A program made the position numbers and the translations under genes. DNA of 64,000 nt from Methanosarcina sp. (lineage in GTDB: Archaea > Halobacteriota > Methanosarcinia > Methanosarcinales > Methanosarcinaceae): NCBI GenBank assembly GCA_003164755.1, contig PLUB01000059.1, positions 1-64,000 of the forward strand, in the 5' to 3' direction. Below, in pieces: positions 59,267 through 63,805 of the stretch. The notes under the pieces were generated by a model. It worked only from the letters and a program-made list of their open reading frames with translations, was not told the DNA's origin and did no database searches. How positions within the stretch are numbered: the stretch's first letter is position 1; each line of letters begins with the position of its first letter.

Positions 59267-59701
59267 ATGCAATATAATATGGATCATAGAAGCCATTCAG
59301 TGTATTCACTCCATTATCATTTTGTACAATGTATAAAATATCGAAGGGGAGTACTTTGTAATTCATTAATAATTGACTTCTTAAAAAGAAAAATCCATAA
59401 TATAAGTAAAACGTATGATGTTGAGGTACTGAGCATAGAATGTGACAAAGATCATTTTCATATGATTTTCACTTCAAAACCAACATTAGACATTCCAAAA
59501 TATATCAATACTTTAAAAACTATAACTTCAAGAGAAATAAGAAAAGAATTTCCTGAAATTAAATTACTATTATGGGAAGAGACCTTTTGGTCAAGATCAT
59601 ATTTCATAGCTACAACGGGCCAAGTGACTTTAGATACATTAAACAAATACATAGACAGTCAAAATGAATCTAACTGTGAAAGTAAAAATATATCCAACTG
59701 A
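59267..59701 (+). CDS. tnpA: IS200/IS605 transposase TnpA (Y1 HUH)
   Basis: Intact single-strand transposase of 144 residues that cuts and joins the hairpin ends of the element. The fold is complete: SHSVYSLHYHFVQCIKYRRG, EVLSIECDKDHFHMIFTSKP with the HFH (HUH) metal site, REIRKEFPEIKLLLWEETFW, SRSYFIATTG, and TLDTLNKYIDSQNES with the catalytic Tyr in the last helix. The length is typical. The ATG at 59267 has TATA-like sequence upstream (TTTATTTATAGAG). The tnpB remnant overlaps its 3' end. It may still move the element or related copies. Confidence 0.95.
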   Translation: MQYNMDHRSHSVYSLHYHFVQCIKYRRGVLCNSLIIDFLKRKIHNISKTYDVEVLSIECDKDHFHMIFTSKPTLDIPKYINTLKTITSREIRKEFPEIKLLLWEETFWSRSYFIATTGQVTLDTLNKYIDSQNESNCESKNISN

Positions 59702-60248: not shown

Positions 60249-60557
60249 TCAGGTCTTTTTATCGTATTCATAAAATATAATTTTAATTTTTTCTTCTGTA
60301 ATCAATCCTTGGGTAATTATTTCATCTAATTTTGGTTTTATTTTATCAATTTTTTCTTCGAGATCAGCTATTTCGAGAAGTATTGGCAAGTCAGTAGATA
60401 ACTGCAATATAGATGTGGTATGGAAATGGCTGTGTTTTCCAAAACCTGCAATGCCCCTAAAAACAGTTACTTCTGCCATCCCATCATTTTTAAGCATCTC
60501 AAGTATATGTATATACAACGACTTGCCTTTATACCTATCAGATTCTCCAATGAATAT
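60249..60557 (-). CDS. DUF190 family protein, N-terminus doubtful
   Basis: Small protein (PF02641), usually 100-110 residues, often encoded next to crcB; it has a PII-like fold and unknown role. The sequence reads IFIGESDRYKGKSLYIHILE, MLKNDGMAEVTVFRGIAGFG, KHSHFHTTSILQLSTDLPIL and ends FYEYDKKT. Homologues start with a few residues before RIFIGESD. Here an in-frame TGA (60560-60558) sits where Arg is expected, and no ATG, GTG or TTG occurs before the TTG at 60518, which would remove IFIGESDRYKGKS. The gene overlaps the end of crcB and would be translationally coupled. It is either point-mutated or started from a rare codon. Confidence 0.7.
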   Translation of the reverse strand: MFIGESDRYKGKSLYIHILEMLKNDGMAEVTVFRGIAGFGKHSHFHTTSILQLSTDLPILLEIADLEEKIDKIKPKLDEIITQGLITEEKIKIIFYEYDKKT

Positions 60558-60984
60558 TCACAATAATATAGCCTGAGATTCCTTTTTCATCTAATTCCCT
60601 CAGCATATACGTGCCAAAGTTCAAAGCCACAATTTTCCGTAAATATACTGCAAACATTGAAAATAATACTGTCGCCATCAAATTTATTACCATCAGTGTT
60701 AGTTTTGAATCATCGAGTAATCTGAATGACTTATAACTAAATGTTGATAATGTTGTATAGCCACCAATTAATCCAATTGTCAAAAATATTCTGGTTTCTT
60801 CGCCAAAGAATCCTTGATATTCAGAAAGGTACATTATTAAACCTAAAAGGAAACTGCTACTAACGTTTACAACCAAAGTACCAACAGGGAAATTAACAAA
60901 ATTGTTCTGTATCCATCCACTTAAAGTATATCTCAAGATAGAGTCTATGAAACCGCCTATGCCTACTAATAGAAAAGTGTACAA
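60538..60984 (-). CDS. crcB: CrcB/Fluc fluoride channel
   Basis: Intact membrane protein of 148 residues with four helices; a dual-topology dimer that lets fluoride leave the cell. Motifs are VGIGGFIDSILRYTLSG (the GG..G...RY start), NFPVGTLVVNVSSSFLLGLI (pore Asn; the usual Gly after N-x-x is Ser) and TIGLIGGYTTLSTFSYKSFR (filter, with Leu in place of the first Phe of TTFSTF). The C-terminal extension (ELDEKGISGYIIVNIHWRI) is longer than usual and overlaps DUF190. The start is TTG at 60984 with GAGG 8 bases before it. A fluoride riboswitch lies just upstream, supporting the function. Confidence 0.92.
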   Translation of the reverse strand: MYTFLLVGIGGFIDSILRYTLSGWIQNNFVNFPVGTLVVNVSSSFLLGLIMYLSEYQGFFGEETRIFLTIGLIGGYTTLSTFSYKSFRLLDDSKLTLMVINLMATVLFSMFAVYLRKIVALNFGTYMLRELDEKGISGYIIVNIHWRI

Positions 60985-60999
60985 GTCAAAAGCCTCGAT

Positions 61000-61066
61000 T
61001 AGTTTATAGAAGTCATCAGCATAAGCTATTTAGACTTAAGAGTCTAGGCGGACTTCATCACCTCTC
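61000..61066 (-). promoter_or_regulatory. fluoride (crcB) riboswitch
   Basis: On the crcB strand the leader reads GAGAGGTGATGAAGTCCGCC, a hairpin TAGACTCTTAAGTCTA, then AATAGCTTATGCTGATGACT and TCTA. This fits the crcB motif: GG.GATG..(G/T)CC.CC at 5', a variable stem, GC, and GCTGATGA..C at 3', which together form the fluoride-binding pseudoknot. It ends about 16 bases before the TTG start, next to the GAGG ribosome binding site, so control of translation or of early termination is plausible. The consensus comparison is from memory. Confidence 0.75.
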
Positions 61067-61964
61067 AAAAAGAAATTTACCAACATTAAATAAATAACTT
61101 ATGCGAGTATGAGTAGGTCATTATTATTCGGTTAGTTTTATTTCCAAAATGAACTTAGCGCTGTTTTTTGGTTTTATTGTTAAACACTTTAGTGATGCTA
61201 GAGTATAAATACTTCAATGCGTGAAAATGCAAATATTCGCTAAATTGGAAAACCTTAATCTTGAAAGAATTAACAAAAGAATATACAACGACCAACCTTT
61301 TAGACAGGCAAGAAAAACATGAAATTATTACTGATCACTGACATCTACATAAATAAAAATTGGAAGAATAATATTGAAATAATATCTTGGTTCGTTTTTA
61401 AACCACAGAAAACAAGAAATAACGGAAATAAGTGAAAAATTTTCCCGTTTATTTCTGTGTTTTCCGTGATTACAGAATTTTAAGCAGCTTAAGTGTAAAT
61501 AATTACAAAAATTATTTATTATTATTTAATAAGTTCTTTTAAACTATTAGTCCACTCATAATCCTTTAAAGTCATCTCTTTTTTCCAGTTTTTGTATGCG
61601 ATGAATCAATATAGATGACCTTTTTAATTCTAATACTAAAACAGATGCATCTAGCAGAACTTTGCTCAATGATATTTTATAGAGTATACTAGCAGGGTTA
61701 TTCTTGAGAACTATAGTGCCTTCTGCAATTGATTATGCAGATTATGATAGTATCTGATACTATATTATAGTTTGTAGAATCGCTTGTTGTGAAACTAGCA
61801 TGTAATATATGCATATCTGTACTCAGTATAGTTCCTAGGGGTGGGTATAGACAAAGGCTCCATGTACTGAAGTAGTTGAATTAAGTTGAACGTTGCTCAA
61901 TGGTGTACATAGAATATGTAAGCAGGTTTTCTCCAAGTAATTATATGAGTTTTTTTGTGAAATC
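61067..61964. other. gap with a long hairpin repeat
   Basis: Contains the inverted repeat at 61402-61470 and a crcB promoter region that I cannot pinpoint. The right part runs into the decayed 3' end of the protease gene. Confidence 0.45.
61402..61470. repeat. inverted repeat, long hairpin
   Basis: ACCACAGAAAACAAGAAATA at the left pairs with TTTATTTCTGTGTTTTCCGT at the right around an AAAAATTTTCCC centre. It resembles the short palindromic elements found many times in Methanosarcina intergenic DNA (inference). Confidence 0.55.
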
Positions 61965-63805
61965 TTTATCAAAATATTTATTGTAGCGAGCATTGAATCT
62001 GTACCAACTGCATTGCTTACTATCAGATTAACTGTATAGACTCCTGCTGCAAAATAAGTATTCTTTGGATTCAGCCCAGTTGAAATAGTTCAGTCTCCAC
62101 CGTTCCATCCATATCCTGTGGCATTTGTCTATAGGTCTGTAAATTGAACCGTTCGGGGAACATAACCATTGGTGACATGGGTACTGAACTTAGCTACAGG
62201 AAGACCTTTTATAGAAAGACCTTGTGGATCAGTAAATGCTTTGATGCACACATTAGTATTTGAGTAACCTAGCTCTGTTGTTATATCGATCCAGATGTTT
62301 CCACCCGGATTACAAAACTTTCTGATGCATTTGCTTTTGCTTGACTACTGTAACCAGAGATTGGCATTTCCACAGCAATTGGATAATTGTATAAAGGGTT
62401 TATAAGCTCCAGTACTACGGAAAATTTTTGGCCGGCGTTGAGCTTAACTCCGGAATTAAGGGGAACTGTATGATAGCCTGCATTTGGAATTGTTCCATTC
62501 TGGGTAAAAGCAGGAGCTTTTTGACTAATGGGATTGGACCCTGTATTATTAAGATATTAATTATATAACTATAGTTTAGGTCTGTCGTGTAGAAATTTAT
62601 TGCTTTGAGAACTTCGTTAGATTTTGCAGTAAAGATATTTGCACCCCAGCCAGTCGTGGGATTAGTTTGAGATATGTTAATTTCCGGATCCATTCAAGTG
62701 GATCGTATTGGTAAATGTTTGTATAATCATTAGAATTTTCAGCCACGAAGAGTGTATTCTTATCATATCCTAAATTAGAATTATAATAGGAAACAGAGAA
62801 ATACCCATTATTATTGTTTACATTACCACAATCTGCCACAGTTGCACCCCAGCTATTTTTTTGATAAACGCTCCATCTCCGGATGGAGTTGGGGAGAAAT
62901 TGTTCTTACTAAAAGAGTCTTCACAGCCTACAATGGTCACTGCATGGTCAGAAGGTGTTGTTCAGCTATAGTAATAACGTATGTGTTTTGGTTATAACTA
63001 GTAGTATTGTGGGATCAGAATACATTGCATTAGTAACTGCTCCATAATTCAGAATTGCCTTTTTGATTTCCAGATTGTCCGTAGAACCATTTCTGCTCGG
63101 AAAAAAGGTTACATTTTGTACATGTTTATGTACAGGAAGGCCTATCTCATTGGACAAAAAGCTTGATGTAGCACTATAAGGGCCATCGCTGGTGTTAACA
63201 GGTCCTGTCCAGCGAATCTGGTAGGCAATTGACATCGGAAAATCGCCCCCGTCGTTGGGGCCTCGATCAAAATCTTGCGGGCCATTTGCAGAAGAAAGTA
63301 GGTTTTAAATATTATTTTCTGAAAAGCTCCAGGTTTCTCTTGGCATTAAATATGATTCAAGGGCTCCATAAGTTGCAAATGTCCAGCACTTACCTGCATT
63401 ACCCTGATTTTCCACAGGGGTTACCCTTTTCAGAATTCCTAAGTCATAGGAAGTTGGAGTAGATGTGTTTGCTGAAGCATATACATCTGCGACTGAAGTA
63501 TGCTTGAGATGACTAAGGTTCACAGGTATGGATGCGAAGCCAAATGTGTTTCCAACAGAGGAATGTGCCGTTTTAGAGACATATTTGTTATTCAGGTATT
63601 TGGTAAATGTAGGATTTTCTGGTGCAAGTCCAACCTTTGGAGAAAATTCAGTTTTGTTTACACCATTTTTTTAAATAAATTTATGATCAGTAGGCACGGA
63701 TATTGGTTTATTTTTTTCTGAAAATCCTGCAGATGCCATTGCTATTGATGAACCTATCACCAAAAATAAAACCAGGATTTCAGTGAAAATTACTAATTCT
63801 TTTAC
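61965..63805 (-). pseudogene. secreted papain-like (C1) protease with lectin-like and PKD domains, broken
   Basis: Remains of a surface protein of about 610 codons. A signal peptide (LVLFLVIGSSIAMASAGFSE) is followed by a TAA near 63670. KVGLAPENPTFTKYLNNKYV comes next, then the C1 peptidase start ILKRVTPVENQGNAGKCWTF with the catalytic Cys. A stop at 63307 precedes IAYQIRWTGPVNTSDGPYSA, and further on SDHAVTIVGCEDSFSKNNFS gives the catalytic His. A shift destroys the Asn-Ser-Trp-Gly segment. YDKNTLFVAENSNDYTNIYQ and TGWGANIFTAKSNEVLKAIN belong to the lectin-like domain. The PKD domain is VAKFSTHVTNGYVPRTVQFT with TAG and TGA inside. Many lesions; a typical Methanosarcina exported protease that is now dead. 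Confidence 0.85.

Follow-up and report, generated by a model that had tools for sequence, protein, structure and literature searches.

The locus and its surroundings

We analyzed a 64-kb window, meaning the whole stretch of Methanosarcina sp. DNA described here, and focused on a short operon read from its minus strand. A fluoride riboswitch aptamer homologous to Rfam family RF01734 (the crcB motif) at 61000..61071 is followed by crcB, which encodes a Fluc-type fluoride exporter (60538..60984), and by the remnant of a DUF190 (COG1993) gene (60249..60590). The TTG start of crcB, at 60984-60982, lies 16 nt after the end of the cmscan match, which places the aptamer in the 5′ leader of a gene of the fluoride response. 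An SD-like GAGG (60993..60996) stands 8 nt before the start codon. Both the SD and the start codon keep the same positions throughout the genus. The first-pass annotation had described this leader as a fluoride riboswitch in front of a TTG-started crcB, with the GAGG site and start directly after the motif; homology bears out this assignment to the family, and both translation signals are where it put them. Upstream of the leader, a putative TATA box, TTATTTATTTAAT (61085..61097, minus strand), appears by eye to be conserved in the genus. If it acts as a promoter element, transcription would begin close to where the aptamer does, near 61065.

Several other features were noted in the window. 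Short broken frames on the minus strand at 62415-63523, one of which matches a papain-type C1 peptidase, are a decayed peptidase gene adjoining the riboswitch locus. An IS200-type Y1 transposase (PF01797, 131.8 bits) is encoded on the plus strand at 59267-59701, with about 550 nt between it and the DUF190 remnant, and a complete archaeal 16S rRNA gene occupies 57-1534 on the minus strand. No tRNA genes were found anywhere within the 64-kb window.

Detection of the aptamer

The crcB motif was described by Weinberg et al. in 2010 (PMC2864571), its ligand has been reviewed (PMC7266159), and the riboswitch is known from both bacteria and archaea. We identified it here using cmscan, which matched RF01734 at 61071-61000 on the minus strand over the full length of the model (1-64 of 64) with 32.7 bits and an E value of 1.5e-7, computed over all 4227 Rfam families. 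A search of the 3.47 Mb genome returned this aptamer as the sole RF01734 match, with an E value of 4.2e-7. The motif is therefore present where it was first reported, far beyond chance. The first-pass annotation had named a covariance-model score above the gathering threshold, with the pseudoknot formed, as the support to look for. The match is highly significant and all six pseudoknot pairs can form, but the score falls 1.3 bits short of the Rfam gathering score of 34 bits, which is a curator's cut-off and no property of the RNA itself. Because the score is under this cut-off, a default Rfam scan of the 64-kb window does not list the aptamer.

Architecture of the aptamer

Next, we compared the window aptamer position by position with 53 distinct archaeal aptamers. 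The arms of P1 are GGUG (61062-61059) and CGCC (61050-61047), spanning 61047..61062 on the minus strand, and all four pairs are formed. The 5′ pseudoknot strand, GAAGUC (61056-61051, minus strand), lies inside the P1 loop and pairs at 6/6 positions with the 3′ strand, GACUUC (61009..61014, minus strand). The pseudoknot pairs covary across the 53 aptamers (A-U/G-C, A-U/C-G, and C-G/U-A), and the pairing scheme is therefore sound. P3 is formed by GC at 61026-61025 pairing with GC at 61020-61019 on the minus strand.

Between P1 and P3 lies an extra hairpin, P2, of 6 bp (UAGACU-CUUA-AGUCUA; 61046-61031, minus strand). It consists of a 13-nt insert in the cmscan alignment together with neighboring bases and is absent from the Rfam model. 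P2 is conserved in Methanosarcinaceae; across 16 relatives it is paired in 90% of cells, and one pair shows a change from A-U to U-A. According to the R2R paper (PMC3023696), 31% of crcB RNAs carry an extra hairpin. The window RNA likewise has one beside the core, 6 bp between P1 and P3, and nothing essential was seen to set it apart from the RNAs described there. P2 is probably the same hairpin.

The ligand-site segments GAUG and UGAUG are both present, and the linchpin residues A40 (61016) and U48 (61008) are retained. The A40-U48 pair is reported to matter in the B. cereus riboswitch (PMC8752731), where U41 was also shown to matter (PMC11077080). The J2/3 strip (61027..61031, minus strand) reads AAAUA where relatives have AAACC, owing to substitutions at 61028 and 61027, so that the conserved AACC before P3 has become AAUA (61030-61027). 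Nearly all archaeal relatives have AACC or AACU at this place, with rare exceptions. The first of the two changes is also seen in a sister copy (L026), and one aptamer with a good score (L086) has a C-to-U change within AACC. The CUAU at the end of the window aptamer is likewise found in two other leaders (L029 and L055).

Taken against the family as a whole, the window copy is like RF01734 members in its P1, P3, pseudoknot, A40 and U48, and in its position before a Fluc gene. It differs in its sub-gathering score, its altered AACC strip, and the damage to its downstream genes.

Genes downstream of the aptamer

The crcB product matches PF02537 with 82.9 bits, under the scores of seven relatives, and its frame is open across the whole domain. 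Alignments show changes at four near-invariant sites: G14D, G43S, E85K, and G116R. G43S is common to L026, while the other three were seen in none of the other copies or intact relatives. One G is missing from the G-run at 60599-60597, and because of this 1-nt deletion the normal crcB stop is lost and the frame continues to 60538. The deletion may be a sequencing error. The DUF190 remnant, recognized as a PF02641 match with one TGA inside, has its natural ATG at 60590 and an in-frame TGA at 60560-60558 (AGA to TGA), ten codons past the start. DUF190 had been expected to be co-regulated with crcB. That expectation is undercut by the TGA that interrupts DUF190, and by the loss from crcB of its normal stop codon and of the residues at several near-invariant sites.

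Distribution in the genus and phylum

The RNA occurs in at least 16 Methanosarcina genomes, mostly in the order leader-crcB-DUF190, with or without a pyrophosphatase gene. In the genus layout, the aptamer is followed after 9–10 nt by the SD, then by a GTG, TTG, or ATG crcB start, an overlapping DUF190 and sometimes pyrophosphatase. The orthologs at the same place in the genus score 41–49 bits and have an intact crcB and, in most, an intact DUF190.

More broadly, 28 of the 150 nearest genomes have a fluoride riboswitch, as do 81 of 393 sampled genomes of the phylum (21%), with up to eight per genome. Riboswitches had been called scarce in archaea; given a fluoride riboswitch in 21% of the sampled phylum genomes, this statement is misleading for the fluoride class. 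Five to eight copies per genome were counted in G402, G470, G166, G184, and G160. In two of these, the riboswitches cluster within 12–13 kb (G402:C16:70098-82052 and G470:C3:201740-214613), which gives each cluster the appearance of a large archaeal fluoride island.

Other gene neighbors were also observed. Aptamers with the same P2 hairpin lie ~90–100 nt upstream of the enolase start in two Methanomethylovorans-type genomes (L013 in G076 and L014 in G063). One family (f5) places the aptamer before a CPA-type antiporter gene, identified by eye from its sequence. These neighbors match the known fluoride-response set (PMC11139923). Another family (f23; G373, G378, G441, G445, G476, G327, and G183) comprises sub-threshold matches of 26–34 bits that span 80–112 nt. 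Their inserts are apparently larger, and they may represent a variant specific to this group that the Rfam cut-off misses.

A second copy and probable decay within the clade

The genome carries a second leader-crcB-DUF190 copy, L031, on the reverse strand of contig C4 (G000:C4), reaching the contig end. Its aptamer has UACCG instead of UGAUG, so that A40 and U41 are gone. Its CrcB looks near-intact at 94.1 bits, and its DUF190 contains an in-frame TAG. The sister MAG, fen_51, contributes two further copies with separate lesions. In L026/L033, the pseudoknot is broken, the T of the start codon is lost, and DUF190 has a frameshift, with a TAG in the profile search. In L035, P1 is broken and crcB has a 4-nt deletion; DUF190 is unbroken. 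Neither the L031 nor the L035 aptamer was recognized by cmscan at E < 0.5. The informative sites for grouping the four copies divide 10:8:6, with no clear majority for any one grouping by which the duplication might be dated.

The ratio of aptamer to crcB divergence is 1.7–2.3 in the window clade versus 0–1.15 in intact species (mean 0.69), meaning that the aptamer diverges faster in this clade. Furthermore, each of the genus aptamers scoring 29–36 bits (window, L025, L026, and L058) belongs to a locus where crcB is damaged or missing. In L025 (G013:C2), the aptamer lies ~200 nt before the pyrophosphatase gene because the intervening crcB and DUF190 are largely deleted. The CrcB dN/dS between copies is low (0.14–0.25), which rules out a long-standing absence of selection on crcB. 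Any loss would thus have happened recently, and part of the function may persist.

Coding density in the window is 44%, compared with 58–75% in two other Methanosarcina. Since four other contigs of the same genome reach 59–74%, the low density is regional. Poor assembly quality across the genome was considered as a source of the lesions and rejected, given the density of the other contigs and the fact that most lesions are substitutions. A plasmid origin was also considered and is unsupported, as no match was found.

Proposed control of translation

The first-pass annotation had suggested, from the geometry of the leader, that ribosome access is controlled. This fits the genus, where the SD lies 9–10 nt after the aptamer and is complementary to the 3′ pseudoknot strand. 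The SD-containing GAGGUU resembles the 5′ pseudoknot strand of intact relatives, GAGGUC. By nearest-neighbor folding, the 3′ pseudoknot strand masks the SD with a mean share of at least 0.74 in 7 of 16 intact leaders, and blocking the pseudoknot strands raises the predicted SD accessibility in those seven. The suggestion fares worse for the window copy itself, where the same folding gives a share of only 0.03 and does not predict the masking fold.

In intact relatives, the SD-pairing helix shows no convincing covariation of its own. When the masking hairpin was compared with linker shuffles, no extra stability was seen except in Methanolobus L047. We also considered whether the change from CUAC to CUAU together with A(-3) is compensatory within the SD-masking helix, and rejected this, as the A is already present in sister copies and a single change is left.

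A translational switch is the putative mode of control in the genus. In the proposed mechanism, without fluoride the GACUUC strand would pair with the SD (GAGGUU) and block translation. In intact relatives, bound fluoride would lock GACUUC into the pseudoknot and leave the SD free, and high fluoride would then allow translation of crcB and DUF190, and in some species of pyrophosphatase too. The model given for the Acidothermus cellulolyticus crcB RNA in the R2R paper (PMC3023696) is similar, with an OFF state that masks the SD and a ligand that frees it. The intact Methanosarcina leaders fit this model, unlike the window copy, for which the masked state is not predicted by folding. In hyperthermophiles, an archaeal fluoride riboswitch has also served to make gene expression inducible (Speed et al. 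2018, as cited in PMC11077080). As that citation presents it, the system is likewise archaeal and its fluoride response is translational; it differs from the window copy in its organism and in having been demonstrated experimentally.

Interpretation of the window copy

The window RNA is orthologous to the fluoride riboswitch of other Methanosarcina, with its optional P2, and we consider it probable that the operon to which it belongs, present in two copies, has come under relaxed selection. The aptamer folds are retained in this copy, but the AACC strip is gone, as are the normal crcB stop and conserved residues of CrcB, and DUF190 is no longer intact. Members of this RNA class at these loci presumably bind fluoride. 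The window copy itself is probably no longer functional as a regulated operon. What counts against decay is the open crcB frame, the retention of all helices, and the occurrence of similar variants in L086, L029, and L055.

The alternative is a fully working translational fluoride riboswitch with a working crcB, as first proposed, its odd residues being tolerated and the DUF190 stop incidental. In its favor, every helix is retained together with linchpin residues A40 and U48, crcB is open over its domain, and the SD and start codon sit where they do elsewhere in the genus. We regard this alternative as unlikely. AACC has become AAUA, CrcB carries three changes, absent from the other copies, at near-invariant sites, and SD masking is unpredicted. 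The crcB stop is lost, DUF190 carries a nonsense codon, the sister copies are decayed, and the aptamer diverges fast.

Control by fluoride-dependent transcription termination in the leader would have a precedent in bacteria, where many crcB RNAs overlap terminators (PMC2864571). It is very improbable here, as the genus aptamer ends 9–10 nt before the SD, too close to accommodate a terminator hairpin easily, and the absence, judged by eye, of T-runs longer than four after the aptamer speaks against it. A chance resemblance with no riboswitch, for which one could cite the score under the Rfam gathering score, is refuted virtually beyond doubt by the same-place orthologs at 41–49 bits, and the genome-wide E value of 4.2e-7, the unique match, and the orthologous position in the genus all stand against it.

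Within the preferred reading of an operon under relaxed selection, the two copies could have decayed crosswise after duplication, the window retaining the better sensor with a damaged CrcB and L031 a near-intact CrcB with a dead sensor. We hold this possible but rather doubtful. If true, this methanogen's fluoride exporter would have escaped riboswitch control, a loss caught in progress.

Fluoride riboswitches in archaea, the additional hairpin, and occlusion of the SD have each been published before, and the window locus by itself contributes a single degraded example of a familiar class of riboswitch. The position-conserved leader found across the genus, with its aptamer, SD, crcB, DUF190, and sometimes pyrophosphatase, offers a clean test system for translational switching by fluoride in archaea. 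The window clade, in turn, provides a picture of riboswitch loss, in which the sensor diverges faster than the gene it controls.
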